From Chryseobacterium gleum (GTDB lineage: Bacteria > Bacteroidota > Bacteroidia > Flavobacteriales_F > PHOS-HE28): 58,746 nt of DNA. The stretch covers positions 1-58,746 of the forward strand of contig CAMCAZ010000017.1 of the NCBI GenBank assembly GCA_945872795.1, given 5' to 3'. The translations under genes and the position numbers were made by a program. The notes below the pieces were generated by a model. It did no database searches. It saw nothing but the letters and a program-made list of their open reading frames with translations, and was not told where the DNA came from. How positions within the stretch are numbered: the first letter of the stretch is position 1; every line of letters begins with the position of its first letter. Positions 780-58,607 of this stretch are shown piece by piece.

Positions 780-1853
780 CTACTGCTTCACCACCCGCGC
801 GCTACGGCCGCTGCCATCAAGCAGGCGCACTAGGTAGGTGCCGGAGGCAAGCCCTTCGAGCTGGAGCAGCGCGCGTTCACCGTTCAGGCGACCTGTGAGC
901 ACCGTGCGGCCCATTGCATCAGCAAGCAGGAAGGACGATGGCGCGGTCAGACCCTCGAGCACCACGCTCTCCGCAGCAGGCACGGGCCAGGCGGTAAGCC
1001 TTGCCGGTGCGCGCTCGGCCACGTCTGTGCTGATATCGCCACAGGTGAATTGCTGGAAAAAAGCCCAGATGATATTCGTGGCACTGAAGGTGGCACCCAC
1101 GGGCCACGTGTGGCCGCCGCCGTCGATCTTGTAGTGTGCTACCACAGATCCTTCAATGCAAGGCTCATAGAGTTGCAGTTCCACCGAGCTCGAGTACGGT
1201 GTCACCACGGGCGGAGTGGCACAATCCAGGTTGCCGGTCCACAGGTCCAGCACCGCCTGTACGCCCAGCCCGCTGAAGACGCTGCCGTTGTAGCTCACGA
1301 TGAAGTCGGAGGTGCCGTGGATCTGCAGCACGCCCGGGGTGTGCTGCGGCGCGCAGCCGGCCACATCGCCGTTGTTGATGGTGCCAGACACCGAGGCGAT
1401 GGCCGCGAAGCACTTGGGGCTTTCGCAGCCCAGCTTGTGGCTCATGTAGCCGCCGGCAGAGAAGCCGGTGGCATAGATGCGCGTGGTGTCGATGCTGAAC
1501 TGGCTGATGAGCGTATCACGCAGGGCGCCGATGTAGCCCACGTCATCGGCCGTGCTGCCGCCTGGGAAGGGCGAGCTGGTGTTCCACCCGTTGTTCACGC
1601 CGTTGGGGTAGGCCACGATGAAGCCCTGATCCTCCGCCAAGGCATTGAAGCCTGTGACGTTCATGATGGCCTCCGCGCTCTGGGTGAAGCCGTGCATCAC
1701 GAACACCAGCGGCACCGTGGTCCCCGGCACGTAGCTCGTGGGCACATAGGTGATGTGGTTGCGGGTGAGGCCGTCGTGTGTGATGGTGCCGTTCACCTGG
1801 GCGATGGCGGGCAGGGCGAGGAAGAGTACAGCGGGCAGGGTCGAGAGGCGCAT
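780..1853 (-). CDS. Secreted PHB-depolymerase/feruloyl-esterase-like hydrolase with T9SS sorting domain
   Basis: Predicted extracellular alpha/beta-hydrolase of the polyhydroxybutyrate depolymerase/LpqC/feruloyl esterase group. A signal peptide spans about residues 1-19 (ends ALPAIAQ). The nucleophile elbow GFSAGGYM places the serine at S132; D183 (HGTSDF) and H248 (GGGHTWP) are plausible triad partners. Four cysteine-bearing segments suggest an exported, disulphide-containing enzyme. The last ~75 residues are a type IX secretion type-A sorting domain (LTAWPVP...GTYLVRLLDGSG...VVKQ), so the protein is probably carried across the outer membrane. The true substrate cannot be read from sequence; a polymer or phenolic ester is likely. 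Confidence 0.85.
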   Translation of the reverse strand: MRLSTLPAVLFLALPAIAQVNGTITHDGLTRNHITYVPTSYVPGTTVPLVFVMHGFTQSAEAIMNVTGFNALAEDQGFIVAYPNGVNNGWNTSSPFPGGSTADDVGYIGALRDTLISQFSIDTTRIYATGFSAGGYMSHKLGCESPKCFAAIASVSGTINNGDVAGCAPQHTPGVLQIHGTSDFIVSYNGSVFSGLGVQAVLDLWTGNLDCATPPVVTPYSSSVELQLYEPCIEGSVVAHYKIDGGGHTWPVGATFSATNIIWAFFQQFTCGDISTDVAERAPARLTAWPVPAAESVVLEGLTAPSSFLLADAMGRTVLTGRLNGERALLQLEGLASGTYLVRLLDGSGRSARVVKQ

Positions 1854-1903
1854 GGTTCAGGCTTGGAAGGCCAAGTTAGGCGTCTGGCGATCAATACGAC
1901 ACT

Positions 1904-3520
1904 TCATATCCGTGCTGCCAGCCGCTTCAAGGCCTCCAACGTGTCGGCGTCCTCCGCCTTCTTGTCCCGCCGCCAGCGCACAATGCGCGGGAAGCGCACG
2001 GCCACACCGCTCTTGTGCCGGCTGCTGGCGCTGATGCCCTCGAAGGCGATCTCGAACACCAGTTTTGGTTCCACTTGCCGCACCGGACCGAAGCGCTCCA
2101 AGGTGTTCTTCTTCACGAAGGCATCCACCTCCTTCATTTCAGCATCGGTCAAGCCGCTGTAGGCTTTCGCGAAGGTGACGAGCTGGCCGTCCTGCCATAA
2201 CCCGAAGGTGTGGTCGGTGTAGAGATCGGCGCGCCTGCCGTGTCCCTGCATGCTGAAGGTGAGCACGGCATCGATGCTCAGCGGGTCCACCTTCCACTTC
2301 CACCAGTCACCGCGTTTGCGGCCCACCTCGTAGGTGCTGCTCCGGCGTTTCAACATCAGGCCTTCGATGCTGGTGGCCCGTGCGTGTTCGCGGTGTGCGA
2401 CGATCTCCTCCCACGAGCTGAACGATAGGGTGGGTGAGAGCAGGAGCGAAGGATGAGCGGCCGATGCGTGCACGTTCTCGAGGATCCGTCGTCGCTCTTC
2501 CATGGGCGCCTGCCGGATGTCCCTGCCTTCGAACTCCAGGATGTCGTAGGCCATGAAGACCACGGGCACATCGCTCAGGATCTTCTTCCCGACGGTCTTG
2601 CGGCCGATGCGTTTCTGCATCTCGGCGAAGGGCAGGGCAACGCCTTCCTTCCACGCGAGGATCTCCCCATCGAGCACCGTGCCCGGAGGTAGTGCTTCCC
2701 GGAAGGCACGGAATTCCGGGTACTTGTCGGTCACCAGTTCCTCGCCACGGCTCCACACGAAGTGCTCTCCACCGCGCACGATCAACTGCCCGCGGATGCC
2801 GTCCCACTTGTGCTCGGCCTGCCAGTCCTGCGGATCGCCGAGCGGCAGCAGTTCCTCCAGACCGGCACCGCCCGCGCGTCCTTCGGCGCCTTCAATGCCG
2901 TAGGCCAGGTAGAAGGGGTAGGGGCGGGAGGCCTGGTCCGCCAGGTTCTCTGCGAAGAGCAGGTCGTGGAATCTGGTGCTGTGCGGGCTCCAGTCGCCCA
3001 TCAGGCGGTGTGCGATGACGTCCTCCTCCAGTGCCGTGGCCTTGCTCAGGCCCTTCACCATGATCTTCTGGCTCACCCCGATCCGGAATCCTCCGGTGAT
3101 GATCTTGTTGAACACGAAGAGCTCCATGCCTTGCAATCCGGCCCACGCGGCTTTCACACGCAGCGCCTTCTCCGCTTCGTCCTGGTGCTTCAGGTCCTCC
3201 ACATAGTGCACCCATTCCGTGAGGCTCTTGGTGATCGGCCGTTCCAGCTTCGCGATGTGCGTCACCGTCTCCGCGAAGTCGCCCACCACGTGGTAGCTGG
3301 CCTCGAACAGCCAGTCGGGGATGCCGCTCACCTCCGCGGCCCATTGCCGCAGCTGGGTGCTGGTGACCGGACGCTTGGGCCGTCTGCCGCTGAGCAGCGC
3401 GATCACCCACAGCTTGTCCGCATCATCCGCCTCGCGGAAATACGCGGCCAGCGCATCCACCTTGGCGTTTGTGCTGGTGGTGGCGTCGAGCGCGTCGAAG
3501 AGGGCGGCTTCGCGATGCAT
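1904..3520 (-). CDS. ATP-dependent DNA ligase
   Basis: Seals nicked DNA through an AMP-lysine intermediate. At 538 residues it has the archaeal/LigB-like layout: an N-terminal DNA-binding domain (about 1-200), adenylation domain with the KxDGxR motif KWDGIRG (adenylated K238), and a C-terminal OB fold. Downstream motifs DGEIL, EGLMLK and WWKWK are also visible. I chose the ATG at 3520; a TTG at 3526 is in frame but lies in a repeat. It pairs with the ligase-associated exonuclease at 4010-5083. In many bacteria these two are adjacent and belong to a DNA end-repair set; here a small gene sits between them. Confidence 0.92.
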   Translation of the reverse strand: MHREAALFDALDATTSTNAKVDALAAYFREADDADKLWVIALLSGRRPKRPVTSTQLRQWAAEVSGIPDWLFEASYHVVGDFAETVTHIAKLERPITKSLTEWVHYVEDLKHQDEAEKALRVKAAWAGLQGMELFVFNKIITGGFRIGVSQKIMVKGLSKATALEEDVIAHRLMGDWSPHSTRFHDLLFAENLADQASRPYPFYLAYGIEGAEGRAGGAGLEELLPLGDPQDWQAEHKWDGIRGQLIVRGGEHFVWSRGEELVTDKYPEFRAFREALPPGTVLDGEILAWKEGVALPFAEMQKRIGRKTVGKKILSDVPVVFMAYDILEFEGRDIRQAPMEERRRILENVHASAAHPSLLLSPTLSFSSWEEIVAHREHARATSIEGLMLKRRSSTYEVGRKRGDWWKWKVDPLSIDAVLTFSMQGHGRRADLYTDHTFGLWQDGQLVTFAKAYSGLTDAEMKEVDAFVKKNTLERFGPVRQVEPKLVFEIAFEGISASSRHKSGVAVRFPRIVRWRRDKKAEDADTLEALKRLAARI

Positions 3521-3522
3521 GA

Positions 3523-3571
3523 CCAAGATTCAAGACACAAGGCTCAAGATTCAAATGTCAAGGTTGCCATC
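3523..3571 (+). repeat. Heptanucleotide CAAGANN tandem repeat, left copy
   Basis: Five to six imperfect 7-bp units (CAAGATT, CAAGACA, CAAGGCT, CAAGATT, then CAAATGT) lie within 2 bp of the ligase start codon. The same motif recurs on the opposite strand at 4042-4095, so the two arrays form an inverted pair around the four-helix-bundle gene. Confidence 0.75.
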
Positions 3572-3596
3572 GGAGCCAAACTGCTCGTGAACGAGT

Positions 3597-3971
3597 TCAA
3601 GTTCTCGACTGGTTGCGCTTCGCCGTGGATACGATCTTACCGATGATCTTGACGAGTTCCAAGCACTCCTGGGTCAACCAGATGAGGTCGGCATCCGTGG
3701 CGGGCATCAACTCGGATAGGGCTTGTATTCGCAGGTTGGCCCGCGATTCCTTGAGCTCCTTCAGGGCTACTTTGCTCTTGTGGATGAAGTCCGCCGGGGA
3801 TTCCGCAGCTTGCGCCTCGCCGTAGTGAAGCGCGGGAGAGCCACCGCTTCGCAGCAACTGGCCGGCGTAGTACTTGCCGGCGACGCTTGTCGGCATGCGG
3901 TCAACGTACTTCACCACCTTGGCTGCAAAGACGATAAGCCGTTCTTCCAGGTCGTAGATCTTGGGTTCCAT
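3597..3971 (-). CDS. Four helix bundle protein (23S rRNA intervening-sequence protein family)
   Basis: 124 residues, the family's usual size. It matches the TIGR02436/IVP-like pattern: an N-terminal DLEERLIVFA helix, then a hydrophobic segment, a GQLLRSGGSPALHYGEA turn, and KSKVALKELKESRANLRI. Relatives form pentameric four-helix bundles; some sit in rRNA intervening sequences or accompany diversity-generating retroelements, but their job is not established. The gene lies between exonuclease and ligase genes that are usually neighbours, and is flanked by inverted heptad repeats, which suggests it was inserted there. No reverse transcriptase is visible in the window. Confidence 0.85.
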   Translation of the reverse strand: MEPKIYDLEERLIVFAAKVVKYVDRMPTSVAGKYYAGQLLRSGGSPALHYGEAQAAESPADFIHKSKVALKELKESRANLRIQALSELMPATDADLIWLTQECLELVKIIGKIVSTAKRNQSRT

Positions 3972-4009
3972 GGGGCTGGGGTCTGTTTGTCCTGTGGCGG
4001 TCTCATCGG

Positions 4010-5083
4010 TCAGCGATCGGCATCGCGGTTGACCTTGGTTATTGTGTCTTGAGTCTTGTATCTTGAGTCTTCTTCCCGAGCGTCTTGTGTCTTGCCTTCT
4101 TCCTCACCAAACTCCGTCGTCTCCGCTGCCGCGTCCATCCCAACGCTCCGCAGGTACTGGCTGAACACATCGGTATAGCCATGCGTGGCGATGACGCGTT
4201 CCGCGCCGGTCTCCTTCACGGCCAACAGCAGCGCTTCCCAATCGGCATGGTCGCTGAGGACGAAGCCTTTGTCGATGTTGCCGCGTCGCCGCCAGCCGCG
4301 TAGTTGCATCCAGCCGCTGGCCATGGCCGTGCTGTACGGCTTCATCTTGTTGGTCCAGGGCGTGCCGATGGCGCTTCCGGGGGTGATGACCAGCGCGTTG
4401 CGGAAGCGTTCCTTGGGCGTGTCCTTGGTGATCGGCTCCCAGGGCGGGAGTTCCATACCGGTGGCTTCGAGCACGGCGTTCATGTTGGCCACAGCACCGT
4501 GCACCAGGATGGGGCCGATGGATGCGTCCACGCCCTTGATGACACGCTGCGCCTTGCCCAGGCTGTAGGCACTGATGATGCTGCACACGCCGTTCGCGGC
4601 GTTCCCCCGCCACCACGCGTTGATGTCAGCGAAGACCTGCGCGGGATCGGGCCAGCGGTAGATGGGGAGGCCGAAGGTGCACTCAGTGATGAAGGTGTGG
4701 CACTTCACGGCTTCGAAGGCGTCGCTGATGCCATCCGTGTGCCGCTTGTGGTCGCCGCTGGCCACCCAGACCTCGCCCTTGTATTCCACCCGCACTTGGG
4801 CACTGCCGGGGATGTGTCCCGCCGGGTGCAGGCTGAAGCGTACCCCGTGGATGGTGATCGGCTCACCGAAGGCCAGTGAGCCGATCCGCAGGTCCTCGCC
4901 GTAGCGGGCGTGCATCAAGGGTTTGGTGACACGACTGCACAGGTAGTGGGCGCTGCCGCGCCGGGCGTGGTCGGCATGGGCGTGTGTGATGATGGCCCGT
5001 TCCACACCACGCCAGGGGTCGATGTACACGTCGGCAATGGGACAGTGGATGCCGCGCGGGGTGAATGACAACAAAGCTGACAT
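4010..5083 (-). CDS. Ligase-associated DNA exonuclease (metallo-beta-lactamase fold)
   Basis: A beta-CASP/MBL nuclease related to mRNA 3'-end processing factors. The metal-binding motif THAHADHARRG (H34, H36, D38, H39) follows the N-terminal strands, with further motifs SGDHKRHTDG, TECTFGLP and the late LSDHADW histidine/aspartate segment. It probably processes DNA ends for the ATP-dependent ligase encoded downstream on the same strand. The last ~30 residues (GKTQDAREEDSRYKTQDT...) are low-complexity and are encoded by the heptad repeat, so the natural C-terminus was probably altered by repeat insertion. Confidence 0.9.
   Translation of the reverse strand: MSALLSFTPRGIHCPIADVYIDPWRGVERAIITHAHADHARRGSAHYLCSRVTKPLMHARYGEDLRIGSLAFGEPITIHGVRFSLHPAGHIPGSAQVRVEYKGEVWVASGDHKRHTDGISDAFEAVKCHTFITECTFGLPIYRWPDPAQVFADINAWWRGNAANGVCSIISAYSLGKAQRVIKGVDASIGPILVHGAVANMNAVLEATGMELPPWEPITKDTPKERFRNALVITPGSAIGTPWTNKMKPYSTAMASGWMQLRGWRRRGNIDKGFVLSDHADWEALLLAVKETGAERVIATHGYTDVFSQYLRSVGMDAAAETTEFGEEEGKTQDAREEDSRYKTQDTITKVNRDADR
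4042..4095 (-). repeat. Heptanucleotide CAAGANN tandem repeat, right copy
   Basis: On the plus strand it reads TGTCTTG, AGTCTTG, TATCTTG, AGTCTTC, a short interruption, then CGTCTTG and TGTCTTG. It encodes the tail of the exonuclease and is the inverted partner of the array at 3523-3571. Confidence 0.75.
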
Positions 5084-5168
5084 GGAGGCTTAGCCCAAGG
5101 TACTCACTGAGCCTACCGAACACGCGCAGCGCTGGGAAGTTCCCGGAACTGCTCTTATATTTCGTTCC

Positions 5169-5549
5169 ATGAGCTCTGTGGAGACCAAGCAGTGCCTGCA
5201 ATGCGGGGAGAAGATCCTGGGCAGGATGGATAAACGGTTCTGCTCCGATGGCTGCAGGAACATCTTCCATTACAACGCGAACAGCGCGCCCATCAATTAC
5301 GTGCGGAATGTGGTGAACGCGTTAAAGAAGAACCGCCGCGTGCTGGCTGACCTGAACACCGGGCCTGAAGGCAAGACGAAGGTGCACCGCGAGAAATTGC
5401 TGGAGCGCGGCTACAACTTCATCTATCACACCAATACCCATCGCACGAAGATGGGCAACATGTACGTGTTCTGCTTTGAACAGGGCTACCTGGAGATCAG
5501 CGAGAACTGGTACATGCTCGTCCGCAGGGACGAGTACCTGGACCGCTGA
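5169..5549 (+). CDS. Conserved zinc-ribbon protein of unknown function
   Basis: 126 residues. An N-terminal zinc-binding ribbon with cysteines C9, C12, C25 and C29 (CxxC-x12-CxxxC) is followed by a basic helix (NVVNALKKNRRVLADL) and a compact C-terminal domain ending GYLEISENWYMLVRRDEYL. This architecture recurs in Bacteroidota, where it is uncharacterised. Ribbon plus basic helix suggests nucleic-acid binding, but that is inference. A TATATTTC element about 10 bases before the start resembles the Bacteroidota -7 box. It is divergent from the exonuclease gene. Confidence 0.75.
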   Translation: MSSVETKQCLQCGEKILGRMDKRFCSDGCRNIFHYNANSAPINYVRNVVNALKKNRRVLADLNTGPEGKTKVHREKLLERGYNFIYHTNTHRTKMGNMYVFCFEQGYLEISENWYMLVRRDEYLDR

Positions 5550-5569
5550 GGCGGAAGGAGCAGTGCGGC

Positions 5570-5695
5570 CTAGCTGGCTGCCCAGATGAGCAGCACCACA
5601 GTGGCAAGGACGAACAGGGCGACCAGCACTGGTCCTCCGATCTCGTTCTGTTCAGCTTCCTCTGGGAAATGGCCGTCGAAGTGGTGGTCGCTCAT
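5570..5695 (-). CDS. Small single-pass membrane protein
   Basis: 41 residues from the ATG at 5695: an acidic, histidine-rich N-terminus (SDHHFDGHFPEEAEQNE) and one hydrophobic helix (VLVALFVLATVVLLIWA) to the end. It converges with the zinc-ribbon gene. Function is unknown; the His/Glu-rich head could bind metal, which is speculation. Longer in-frame starts upstream have no supporting composition. Confidence 0.5.
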   Translation of the reverse strand: MSDHHFDGHFPEEAEQNEIGGPVLVALFVLATVVLLIWAAS

Positions 5696-5780
5696 GGTGA
5701 AGTCGTGGTGGGGGCAAATATAGATGGCATCGGCTTCACACCAACGGTGCGATGCACGGAGCAGGATGGTCGGTCGACGC

Positions 5781-5948
5781 CTAGTGTCGCAACCCGTAAG
5801 TTCCTTCACCATCTCCGCCCCTCTTTCACCTTCCTGCCGCGTTGGAACATTTCGTCGTAGCGCCCACTACGCCGTACATGTTCCGCCTTGCATGAAGGCG
5901 AAATAGTGGCAGACCTTCAGTTAACCAACTTACGGGTTGCGACACTAG
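5781..5948. mobile_element. MITE-like element bounded by 22-bp perfect inverted repeats
   Basis: The left end 5781-5802 (begins CTAGTGTCGCAACCCGTAAG) is repeated exactly in inverse orientation at 5927-5948, giving a 168-bp unit with no coding capacity. Inside are nested hairpins: GGAACAT/ATGTTCC enclosing CGTAG/CTACG at about 5836-5886, and CGCCTT/AAGGCG near 5884-5900. The overall design resembles a non-autonomous palindromic element or a REP-type structure mobilised in trans. The right end supplies the stop codon of the neighbouring small gene. Confidence 0.6.
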
Positions 5949-6136
5949 TTGAGGCTGAAGGTGGGCTGGCGAAGCACCATCCGGGCGATCACTCCACTTT
6001 CGTTGGACCGCATGCGCCGGATCATGGCCAACACCTGTTCGTCCAACTCGCGATCGCTCAGCTTCGCCAGGTCCTTGTAGACCGGTAGACTGCTCCTGCT
6101 CTTGAGGATGAGGGCTATTTTGTAAGAGCGTGACAT
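5945..6136 (-). CDS. Small hypothetical protein, end formed inside a MITE-like repeat
   Basis: 63 residues from the ATG at 6136 (MSRSYKIALILKSRSSLPVY). The sequence is basic with a likely helix (LSDRELDEQVLAMIRRMRSNE). I do not recognise the family. The TAG stop at 5945-5947 lies within the inverted repeat of the element at 5781-5948, so a longer original reading frame may have been cut short by insertion. Confidence 0.45.
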   Translation of the reverse strand: MSRSYKIALILKSRSSLPVYKDLAKLSDRELDEQVLAMIRRMRSNESGVIARMVLRQPTFSLN

Positions 6137-6291
6137 GGTTCCTGTTCTGAAGACGCGTCCATGGTGGGAAAGGATGCCTGCAAAGCGTCCAGGCAGCCTG
6201 CTTAAGTTAGGAACGGGTCTGTTCCGGTCATGAACGGTCGGTATGGAACAGGAAGGAGGGGGGATGGGTCCGTTGGGAGGCGAAGCCATGC

Positions 6292-6535
6292 CTTTTCTTT
6301 GGGGGGAGGCCTCAGAGCAAAGCCTTGATCGCTGCGGGATGAGGAGATCTCGCTCCACCAACAGGAGGATCGCCCTCCCTTCGGTCGGGCTTTCCTTGGG
6401 GGGAGGCCTCAAACTACAGCCCTGATCGCTGAGTAATGAGGAGATCTCGTTCCAATAAAAAGGAGGATTGCCCTCCCGTTGGTCGGGCTTTCCTTTGGTG
6501 GAGGCCTCAGACCCCAGCCCTGATCGCTACGCTCT
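6292..6535. repeat. 98-bp tandem repeat, about 2.5 copies
   Basis: Unit 1 is 6292-6389, unit 2 is 6390-6487 and a partial third runs from 6488. Shared blocks are a CTTTCCTTGG-type start, GGAGGCCTCA, CCTGATCGCT, ATGAGGAGATCTCG and GCCCTCCC...GGTCGGGC. The last block can form a hairpin in each unit. Reading frames across it carry no protein-like pattern. This and the hairpins after it account for most of the 494-base gene-free stretch 6137-6630; 6137-6291 holds nothing I can identify. Confidence 0.75.
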
Positions 6536-6537
6536 CG

Positions 6538-6623
6538 GGGCTTTTGGCTTCCCGCCCGAGCTCAAGCTGCGCTTGGCTCGGGCGGGAAGCCAAAAGCCCT
6601 TGCAACTTCGTCGCAAGGGCTTT
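6538..6623 (-). terminator. Overlapping hairpins downstream of tRNA-Pro
   Basis: Two hairpins share sequence. One pairs 6593-6603 with 6613-6623 (AAAGCCCTTGC) and, read on the minus strand, is followed by TTTT, so it is a good intrinsic terminator for tRNA-Pro. The other is a 24-bp perfect stem pairing 6538-6561 with 6576-6599. Because 6593-6599 belongs to both, the two structures exclude each other. Confidence 0.7.
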
Positions 6624-6627
6624 GATC

Positions 6628-6704
<77 letters not shown>

Positions 6705-6752
6705 AACTTCCGGGTTTGCACACAGGGATTGTAGCCGCTGTGGGAAGGGCTG

Positions 6753-6760
6753 CAAATATA
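6753..6760 (-). promoter_or_regulatory. Probable -7 element for tRNA-Pro
   Basis: TATATTTG on the minus strand matches the Bacteroidota TAnnTTTG consensus exactly and precedes tRNA-Pro. No convincing -33 TTG was seen at the right spacing. Confidence 0.5.
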
Positions 6761-6785
6761 AGATCTTGGGAAAACCGGACCGGGG

Positions 6786-7484
6786 TCAGGCGTCGAACTT
6801 GTAGCCGATGCCCTTGATGGTCTTGATGCGCTCGTCGCCGATCTTTTCGCGCAGCTTACGGATGTGCACGTCGATGGTGCGGTCGCCCACGAAGAGCTCG
6901 TTGCCCCAGATCTGACTGTAGATCTCGTCGCGCTTGAACACCTTGCCGGGCTTGCTCATCAGCAGCACCAAGAGCTCGAACTCCTTCTTGGGGAGTTGTA
7001 GTTCCTGTTCGCCGATGTAGACCAGCACTTTCTCCAGGTCGATCTTGATACCGTTGGACTCGAGGATGCGGCCGTCCGGTCGCTCGCCACCGCTGCGCTT
7101 CAGCAGGGCCTTGATCTTGCTGACGAAGACCTTGGGGCGGATGGGCTTGGTGATGTAATCATCCGCACCGGCCTCGAAGCCTGCGATCTGGGAGTAATCC
7201 TCACCGCGTGCGGAGAGGAAGGTGATAAGGGTCTGCTTGAACTCGGGCAACTGGCGCAGTTGGTTGCACACCTCCACGCCATCCATGCCGGGCATCATAA
7301 TGTCCAGCACGATCAGGTCCGGCCGGTTGGCCTTTGCAGAGCGGAGGGCATCCCTGCCGTTCAGAGCGGTGGTCACCTGATAACCTTCACGTTCCAGGTT
7401 GTACTTGAGCAACTCCAGGATATCCTGCTCATCATCCACCAACAACACCTTGGGTGCCAATGCTCCGGTCATAAGGTCTTCCAT
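6786..7484 (-). CDS. OmpR/PhoB-family response regulator
   Basis: 232 residues. The N-terminal receiver domain has acidic pair D17/D18, phosphoacceptor D61 (VLDIMMPGMDG) and K113 (ITKPIRP). The C-terminal winged helix ends RTIDVHIRKLREKI...IKGIGYKFDA, typical of DNA-binding OmpR/PhoB regulators. No histidine kinase gene is adjacent, so its partner is encoded elsewhere. In-frame starts at 7484 and 7472 are both possible; the 7472 start gives MTGALAPKVLLVDDE. A perfect TATATTTG box lies about 55 bases upstream. Confidence 0.92.
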   Translation of the reverse strand: MEDLMTGALAPKVLLVDDEQDILELLKYNLEREGYQVTTALNGRDALRSAKANRPDLIVLDIMMPGMDGVEVCNQLRQLPEFKQTLITFLSARGEDYSQIAGFEAGADDYITKPIRPKVFVSKIKALLKRSGGERPDGRILESNGIKIDLEKVLVYIGEQELQLPKKEFELLVLLMSKPGKVFKRDEIYSQIWGNELFVGDRTIDVHIRKLREKIGDERIKTIKGIGYKFDA

Positions 7485-15357: not shown

Positions 15358-15388
15358 AACCACGGATGCACACCGATGGACACGGATG
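15358..15388 (+). repeat. CACGGATGNA decanucleotide repeat, copy A
   Basis: Three 10-bp units (CACGGATGCA, CACCGATGGA, CACGGATG) preceded by AAC. It matches the copy at 58577-58607 at 29 of 31 positions and lies in the gene-free stretch upstream of the helicase gene. No GxxExxY gene is next to this copy. Confidence 0.8.
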
Positions 15389-57516: not shown

Positions 57517-58578
57517 ATGTACACCCTCATCCGCCCCCTGTTGTTCCGACTGTCCCCGGAGCGGGCGCATCACCTCACCTTCAGCTTGCTGGAACTGGCG
57601 TCCAAGGTCCCCGGTCTGCTGGCCTTGGTAGGCGGGGAACGCCCACCGGCCAAGGCATGGGTCACGGTCATGGGATTGCGCTTCCCGTCGCCCGTGGGCC
57701 TCGCCGCCGGCATGGACAAGGATGCGAAACATGTCAACGCCCTGTCGGCCCTGGGCTTCGGCTTCATCGAGGTCGGCACGCTCACGCCCTTGCCCCAGCC
57801 GGGCAATGAAGCACCCCGACTGTTCCGACTGCCTGCCGATCATGCGCTCATCAACCGCATGGGTTTCAACAACGGCGGGGTATTGGAGGCCGTGGAACGC
57901 CTGCGCAAGCGGACCCCGGGCATCATCGTCGGAGGCAACATCGGCAAGAACAAGGTGACGCCCAACGAAGCTGCGGTAGACGATTACGTGAAGTGCTTCG
58001 AGGCCCTGTACCCCGTGGTGGACTATTTCGTGGTGAACGTGAGCAGTCCGAACACCCCCGGTCTGCGAGCGCTACAGGAGAAGGGACCACTTCTTGAAAT
58101 TCTGGGAAGGTTGAAGGAACTGGGGGATCAGAAGATCAGAGGATCAGAGGATCAGAAAATGATATCCAAACCCCTCCTCCTCAAGATCGCTCCCGACCTG
58201 ACGGATGCCCAGCTTGACGATGTCTGTTCGGTGGTGAAGGAGAGCGGAATTGCCGGGGTCATCGCCACCAACACCACCATCTCGCGCGAAGCATTGAAAA
58301 CGCCCAAAGCCGAAGTGGAGGCCATGGGCATGGGCGGCGTGAGCGGTGCACCGGTGCGTGCGCGGAGCACCGAGGTGGTCCGTTACCTGCGCCTACGCCT
58401 TCCACGTCCGTTCGTGATCATCGGCGTAGGCGGCATCGACAGTGCCGAAGCTGCCCTGGAGAAACTGGATGCCGGCGCCGACCTGGTGCAGGTTTACACC
58501 GGGTTGATCTATGAAGGACCCGCGCTCGTGAAGCGGATCAATCGGGCATTCGCCGGGCGAGGCATTAAGAGTGTATAA
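57517..58578 (+). CDS. pyrD: Dihydroorotate dehydrogenase, quinone type
   Basis: 353 residues. Class 2 enzyme of pyrimidine synthesis: N-terminal membrane-associating helices (MYTLIRPLLFRLSPERAHH), GLAAGMDKDAKH, NRMGFNNGG, the catalytic Ser loop NVSSPNTPGLR and the FMN site GVGGIDSAEAALEKL. A short GDQKIRGSEDQKM insertion near residue 205 is coded by an 8-bp repeat and replaces part of a surface loop. I chose ATG 57517. Confidence 0.93.
   Translation: MYTLIRPLLFRLSPERAHHLTFSLLELASKVPGLLALVGGERPPAKAWVTVMGLRFPSPVGLAAGMDKDAKHVNALSALGFGFIEVGTLTPLPQPGNEAPRLFRLPADHALINRMGFNNGGVLEAVERLRKRTPGIIVGGNIGKNKVTPNEAAVDDYVKCFEALYPVVDYFVVNVSSPNTPGLRALQEKGPLLEILGRLKELGDQKIRGSEDQKMISKPLLLKIAPDLTDAQLDDVCSVVKESGIAGVIATNTTISREALKTPKAEVEAMGMGGVSGAPVRARSTEVVRYLRLRLPRPFVIIGVGGIDSAEAALEKLDAGADLVQVYTGLIYEGPALVKRINRAFAGRGIKSV
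58126..58157 (+). repeat. GATCAGAR octanucleotide repeat inside pyrD
   Basis: Four tandem 8-bp units (GATCAGAA, GATCAGAG, GATCAGAG, GATCAGAA). 32 bases is not a multiple of three, so a single unit gained or lost would shift the frame of pyrD. Confidence 0.8.
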
Positions 58579-58607
58579 CCACGGATGCACACGGGTGGAC
58601 ACGGATG
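58577..58607 (+). repeat. CACGGATGNA decanucleotide repeat, copy B
   Basis: Units CACGGATGCA, CACGGGTGGA, CACGGATG. It begins at the end of pyrD (overlapping its stop) and stands 17 to 23 bases before the GxxExxY start codon. It matches copy A (15358) at 29 of 31 positions. Confidence 0.8.

Follow-up and report, generated by a model that had tools for sequence, protein, structure and literature searches.

A close described parallel to the locus presented here is the IVS in the 23S rRNA of Coxiella burnetii, which contains an S23 ORF, is closed by a 28-bp terminal stem and is cut by RNase III at the first tandem heptamer (PMC4990558). These heptamers, GACAGAT, lie 5′ of the ORF and their copy number varies by strain. 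The Coxiella S23 protein is considered not to be produced in vivo, and the S23 protein of Xanthomonas is a homopentamer (PMC4990558). Heptamers are also known from a separate literature. Intergenic heptamer arrays of unknown cause, TAACTGA for example, have been described in Beggiatoaceae, Cyanobacteria and Bacteroidetes, and in many bacteria, as cited there, no long simple repeat is commoner than the heptamer (PMC4679880). GGGAATC arrays are found in Xanthomonas and Nostoc, with about 186 arrays in Xanthomonas, of which about 70 form convergent pairs (PMC4692102). Searching the text of these two papers on arrays for S23 and four-helix terms gave no link between such a gene and the arrays, and no earlier report of a general association between S23 genes and such arrays was found in the openly licensed literature.

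The locus lies in a 58.7-kb window, the whole stretch of DNA that was analysed, which is contig 17 of a 3.3-Mb genome. A gene for an S23-type four-helix-bundle protein sits there between a DNA ligase gene and an exonuclease gene and is bracketed in mirror image by two CAAGANN heptad arrays (Table 1). All three genes are on the minus strand, so that the S23 ORF is read in the sense of the host transcript. The plus-strand array stops 4 nt short of the ligase ATG (at 3520, minus strand), whilst at the other end the exonuclease reads into the repeat: its match to the TIGR04122 profile stops at 4100, and the last 29 residues, EGKTQDAREEDSRYKTQDTITKVNRDADR, fall outside the match and are array-encoded. 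Alignment of the 25-nt core of the 5′ arm to the reverse-complemented 3′ arm gives 22 identities in 25 positions. An Rfam scan of positions 1800–7000 returned tRNA only; the cassette is not inside 23S rRNA and lies between protein genes.

Table 1. Coordinates of the cassette, its host genes and a solo array in the window
Feature	Position	Strand	Basis
S23/IVP four-helix-bundle gene (TIGR02436), 124 aa	3597..3971	-	Profile search and AF2 model
CAAGANN heptad array CAAGATTCAAGACACAAGGCTCAAGATTCAAATGTCAAG, 3′ arm in gene sense	3524..3562	+	Pattern search, score about 20-21
CAAGANN heptad array, 5′ arm in gene sense, encoding part of the exonuclease tail	4034..4071	-	Score 25
5′ arm, outer partial repeat GCAAGACACAAGACGC	4080..4097	-	RNA fold, predicted to pair with the outermost 3′ arm
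Exonuclease C-terminal 29 aa, coded by array and cassette sequence	4013..4099	-	Profile and relatives
Ligase-associated DNA damage response exonuclease, upstream host gene	4010..5083	-	TIGR04122, 455 bits
Cisplatin damage response ATP-dependent DNA ligase, downstream host gene	1904..3520	-	TIGR04120, 607.9 bits
Cassette as transcribed, arms paired in predicted RNA with the ORF enclosed	3523..4095	-	MFE -207 kcal/mol, z -3.66
Solo octad array GATCAGAN x4, in-frame in pyrD coding sequence	58126..58157	+	Repeat search

The two arrays are the sole period-7 segments of such strength in the window. No CAAGANN array with a score of at least 12 was found in 20 dinucleotide shuffles of the whole window, against observed scores of 20 and 25, and a period-7 segment of any sequence arose in only 1/20 such shuffles. 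Since shuffles almost never reproduce them, the window arrays are not due to chance. Across the whole genome the CAAGANN pattern gives 20 matches, against none for a reversed control, and these fall at five sites: the window gene, a second four-helix gene (C6, locus L005) and three sites without a gene. The gene at L005 has the same heptad and the same bracketing as the window gene. In this genome, CAAGANN arrays thus bracket four-helix genes at two of the five sites and are also present where there is no gene.

The protein encoded between the arrays is a member of TIGR02436, scoring 57.9 bits against a cut-off of 24; its score against PF05635, 32.3 bits, is narrowly under the cut-off of 33.8. 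The AF2 model of the protein (pLDDT 93) has four helices, and the closest solved folds are the S23 proteins 2rld, which has five chains, and 2gsc, followed by Avd (4dwl). The model also matches Avd within a reverse-transcriptase ribonucleoprotein (8ub7). The likeness to Avd is one of fold, with four helices in both and a TM of about 0.7, at a sequence identity of about 15%. Avd is a subunit of the DGR reverse transcriptase ribonucleoprotein, whereas the neighbours of the window gene show no such partner, neither a DGR reverse transcriptase nor a template repeat being present among the neighbour genes read. By profiles and model, the window protein consists of the four-helix domain alone and carries no nuclease or transposase motif.

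Comparison with relatives shows that the gene and its arrays behave as a unit. The ligase–exonuclease locus was sought in 45 genomes of the genus, and 18 loci were complete enough to judge. Four are filled (the window, L122, L129 and L131), with the four-helix gene and arrays on both sides, and the other 14 are unfilled, with neither the gene nor any period-7 array. Because four loci have both and 14 have neither, the S23 gene and its arms are present or absent as one. Twelve of the unfilled loci were read in detail, and in these the ligase frame overlaps the exonuclease end; in relatives without the cassette the exonuclease tail is an unrelated sequence. The original prediction had held that inverted CAAGANN arrays bracket the four-helix gene, that the ligase and exonuclease genes normally adjoin, that the exonuclease gains a repeat-coded tail, and that the whole looks like an inserted cassette with repeat ends. 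The first three points are borne out and the interpretation as a whole is supported in part; the comparison of the locus in relatives that it called for found neither gene nor arrays at any of the unfilled loci.

For the best filled and empty pair, L131 and L132, the alignment runs as far as the exonuclease domain extends and resumes at about ligase codon 13. The short segment between the aligned parts is replaced and the first ligase codons differ too; no target-site duplication is recognisable at the junction in this comparison. Since the junction is replaced and the ligase codons differ, homologous exchange could explain this pair, and on the alignment an exchange carrying the cassette is as possible as a fresh insertion. 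Most empty loci hold a palindrome, GTCGACCC...GGGTCGAC, where the filled loci carry the cassette; it was seen in the exonuclease tail of L115, L117, L118, L121, L124, L126 and L132.

It is conceivable that the cassette entered the ligase–exonuclease site once, in an ancestor, and has since passed on by inheritance or homologous exchange, the family being no longer mobile in the genus. The four filled loci share the same gap and their proteins are related, those of L129 and L131 being 67% and 89% identical to the window protein. The arms of L129 have drifted from CAAGANN to CAATNNN with their complementarity kept and, as the new heptad is present in both, the arms have changed together. The family is also very rare among plasmid records (26 of 72,556) and among phages (2 of 50,697), which points the same way; a search of viral contigs with the window protein gave no match. 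A fixed relic does not readily account for L005, where the genome has another cassette built on the CAAGANN heptad, or for the number of family genes in the genomes of relatives, which ranges from 0 to 11. Such a history is rather unlikely as a description of the family in this genus, and would in any case be compatible with the origin favoured below, an IVS-type cassette.

The bracketing seen in the window was also sought at large. Self-similarity at period p, for p of 4–20, was scored around every four-helix gene fetched, with thresholds set by the author and with start codons that are approximate in the automated analysis. In the genus, a period-7 segment lies within 350 bp of 53/80 genes and at 500 bp or more from 2/80, and a period-8 segment lies near seven of the genes. 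In a global set of 80 genes, taken from one genome per species, a period-7 segment lies within 350 bp of 73/80, compared with 10/80 at 1000–1350 bp, and periods that are not multiples of 7 reach at most 6/80; the loci are partly related and phylogenetically non-independent, several being Prevotella serC/serA copies, for example. This set covers at least nine phyla, with members from Cyanobacteria, Bacteroidota, Clostridia, Proteobacteria, Desulfobacterota, Campylobacterota, Verrucomicrobiota, Calditrichota, Ignavibacteria and Spirochaetes. All 12 of the plasmid copies retrieved, from Cyanobacteriota, Chloroflexota, Spirochaetota and Bacteroidota, have a period-7 array within 350 bp. The distance profile is sharp, with 135 segments within the first 250 bp and about 8 per bin farther out. 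At the threshold used, about one third of the genus genes and 9% of the global genes are without an array. The mirror-image bracketing of the window S23 gene is thus confirmed as real and general.

A mere coincidence of slippage-prone intergenic repeats with a common orphan gene, with no functional link between them, would be in keeping with the existence of heptad arrays that have no gene and with the abundance of heptamers as simple repeats (PMC4679880). It sits badly with the frequency of arrays across phyla and on plasmids, with the distance profile and with the period-7 controls, in which arrays were found at 0/22 GxxExxY genes and at 1/25 exonuclease-family loci searched over their whole length. 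It also leaves unexplained why heptads are alike within the arms of a locus and not between loci. As the main explanation, coincidence is already refuted, short of a bias of the array detector in favour of these genes, and very little weight is left to it.

The constant feature of the family is period 7 with inverted arms, not CAAGANN. Heptads vary by locus (GTAATTC, ATTGACC, GAAAGCG, CAACTGA, CCATTCA and others) and are sometimes replaced by octads. CAAGANN as a family-specific signal was rejected, the heptad differing per locus and CAAG arrays often standing without a gene. The enrichment of four-helix genes beside arrays that had been predicted therefore holds for heptad arrays in general and is not specific to CAAGANN. 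When the left flank of a gene is compared with the right, an inverted match beats a direct one by 72:4 in the global set and by 62:14 in the genus, and the two arms of one locus are more alike than 95% of cross-locus pairs in 66/78, 10/12 and 52/77 cases. Likeness between heptads tracks protein identity, with a cosine of 0.65–0.80 for proteins at least 80% identical and a value near background below 50%. In predicted RNA, more than half of the 5′ arm is paired with the 3′ arm in 103 of 113 elements, these being the ones with alignable arms and so selected for inverted arms. The fold predicted for the window cassette, whose z of -3.66 is relative to shuffles, has a terminal stem around the ORF.

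Arrays that abut the ORF on both sides are also what might be expected of an autoregulatory gene instead of a selfish element. Its product, a pentamer, would bind five heptads of the leader and trailer of its own RNA, much as TRAP does, in order to control its own expression or the stability of the operon mRNA. Alignable arms mostly measure 28–35 nt, or some four to five units; the sense strand of the 5′ arm is rich in purines; and the solved relatives are pentamers (PMC4990558). An exact match of five units to a pentamer was tried and rejected: gene-distant arrays also peak at 28–35 nt, so the correspondence is only suggestive. Nor did the units show a fixed recognition core, since the positions of conserved letters are no more contiguous than in shuffled units. 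Autoregulation would moreover not predict solo arrays far from the gene, some inside coding sequence, or the joint absence of gene and arms from an otherwise intact operon, and it is quite improbable as the purpose of the arrangement.

The cassettes are oriented with respect to transcription of their surroundings. In the global set both neighbours are co-oriented with the four-helix gene in 47 cases and opposite in 4 (p 2e-10); the bias is weaker in the genus (28 vs 8) and absent at some loci, as at cas2/cas1, where the gene is antisense. Annotated insertion sites are cas2/cas1, helicase/DNA methylase and DUF1156/Swt1, whilst the serC/serA and nfeD/flotillin sites were named by the author from flanking reading frames. 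On cyanobacterial plasmids (L187, L189 and L185), cassettes lie between cas2 and cas1, or between csx2 and cas1. Cassettes of cyanobacteria that share the GTAATTC heptad, and whose gene DNA is 77–87% identical, lie in several settings unrelated to one another. A recent move of a 94%-identical Nostoc cassette (L196/L202) was considered and rejected, the XisI flank being homologous as well.

Arrays without a gene occur, frequently in the form of inverted pairs separated by a few tens of bases. A search of the window's genome for the octad GATCAGAN gives 43 matches, against none for the reversed control; at two sites it flanks a four-helix gene on both sides (L003 and L004), and the remaining sites inspected are solo, including one within pyrD (Table 1). 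Among relatives, this pyrD loop carries octads in some, a GAGTGGC/GCCACTC heptad hairpin or CAACTGA heptads in others, and no array in most. CAAG arrays are commoner in genomes with a CAAG-flanked gene (median 28 vs 6.5, p 0.017), a weak effect, and many solo arrays are found in genomes without a matching gene.

In REPIN/RAYT and MITE systems, a genome contains a few copies that bear a gene and, scattered through it, short hairpins with the same ends. The cassette could likewise be a mobile element at the DNA level, its arms being recognised as DNA hairpins and its four-helix protein being accessory to an unknown recombinase; solo arrays would then be non-autonomous copies and the RNA stem would be incidental. 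The solo octad hairpins do share arm sequence with gene-bearing cassettes, several of them as inverted pairs, and three different array families are found in the one pyrD loop across relatives, most of which have no arrays there. The convergent GGGAATC pairs of Xanthomonas (PMC4692102), the species from which the S23p Xcc0516 (2gsc) comes, also fit such an element. The protein, however, is a plain four-helix fold without a nuclease or transposase motif, no target-site duplication is recognisable at the junction compared, and a sense bias towards both neighbours (47:4) is unexpected for an element acting as DNA only. A DNA-level element is accordingly considered unlikely.

Some further repeats were observed in the course of this work. 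GxxExxY genes were rejected as a neutral control: they are clean at period 7, but bear arms of their own. In the genus these orphan genes (TIGR04256; L307–L336) are bracketed by inverted arrays, CACAGAGGCACAGAGG and CACAGATGACACAGATG, with units of about 9–10 nt, and 21/22 loci exceed their distant flanks. In the window this design was noted at 58580–58607 and from 58635 onward. A solo CACGGATG array with a 10-nt unit at 15361–15388 resembles the array before the GxxExxY gene at 58580, and has no GxxExxY gene beside it. The window also contains an inverted repeat, GTGTCGCAACCCGTAAGT...ACTTACGGGTTGCGACAC, at 5780–5950, its two parts separated by about 120 bp that contain no long gene, and a 98-bp tandem repeat at 6292–6528 (2.4 copies, 82% matches).

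The best reading of the window feature, and one that is reasonably probable, is an IVS-type selfish cassette outside rRNA. Such a cassette would consist of an S23 ORF of about 120 codons between inverted arms of about four to five units, mostly of 7 nt and sometimes of 8 nt, and would have entered, in sense orientation, an operon already in place. Upon transcription of that operon the arms would pair into a stem enclosing the ORF and, by analogy with the 23S IVS, this stem may let RNase III excise the ORF or may insulate it from the host mRNA. The four-helix protein, with its pentameric solved relatives, most likely binds the repeats of its own arms, and this binding would help to maintain or disseminate the cassette. 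Solo hairpin arrays would derive from cassettes but lack the gene. The data show the architecture, with like heptads in the two arms of a locus, its generality, the joint absence of gene and arms, and the sense bias. Processing by RNase III, arm binding by the protein and the mechanism of mobility are steps that we infer, and no transposition or excision was seen.

Relatives in at least nine phyla are packaged alike, and the rRNA IVS therefore appears to be one case of a widespread cassette, a class that is probably mobile. A broader and more tentative proposal is that mobile elements with arms set by repeat period and inverted pairing, and not by sequence, form a large class across phyla, and that the S23/four-helix proteins are the dedicated nucleic-acid-binding proteins of this class. 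The heptanucleotide arrays of cyanobacteria, Xanthomonas and Bacteroidota might then be its gene-less offspring, the 23S IVS would be one member, and the GxxExxY genes may follow the same design with 9–10-nt units. The proposal joins three puzzles: the origin of the 23S IVS and the role of its S23 protein, the heptanucleotide arrays, and the orphan four-helix genes found in unrelated operons. It predicts a pairing of protein with repeat, and offers annotators a rule, that a ‘four helix bundle protein’ is a reason to look for inverted heptad arrays alongside.

The description of the cassette as a new kind of element, made in the original prediction, needs qualifying, because the Coxiella 23S IVS already has an S23 ORF, terminal inverted repeats and heptamers (PMC4990558). 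Like the 23S IVS, the cassette has a single S23-family ORF in sense to the host transcript, terminal inverted repeats that can form a stem, heptamers in tandem and of variable copy number beside the ORF, and a size of about 430–510 nt. Unlike the 23S IVS, its host is a protein operon, with cassettes occurring among many kinds of gene in many phyla, and both of its arms are heptad arrays with a heptad particular to the locus; processing by RNase III, established for Coxiella, would here be by analogy. The cassettes resemble REPIN/RAYT and MITE systems in having gene-less dispersed copies that share ends, as in the octad family and the pyrD loop, but their gene encodes a four-helix domain only and not a transposase (RAYT, Y1-Tnp), and their arms are locus-specific tandem arrays of short units rather than a fixed palindrome. 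With the published heptanucleotide arrays they share an intergenic position, several 7-nt units and a frequent occurrence as convergent pairs, and they differ from these in that the gene-bearing form is seen here.
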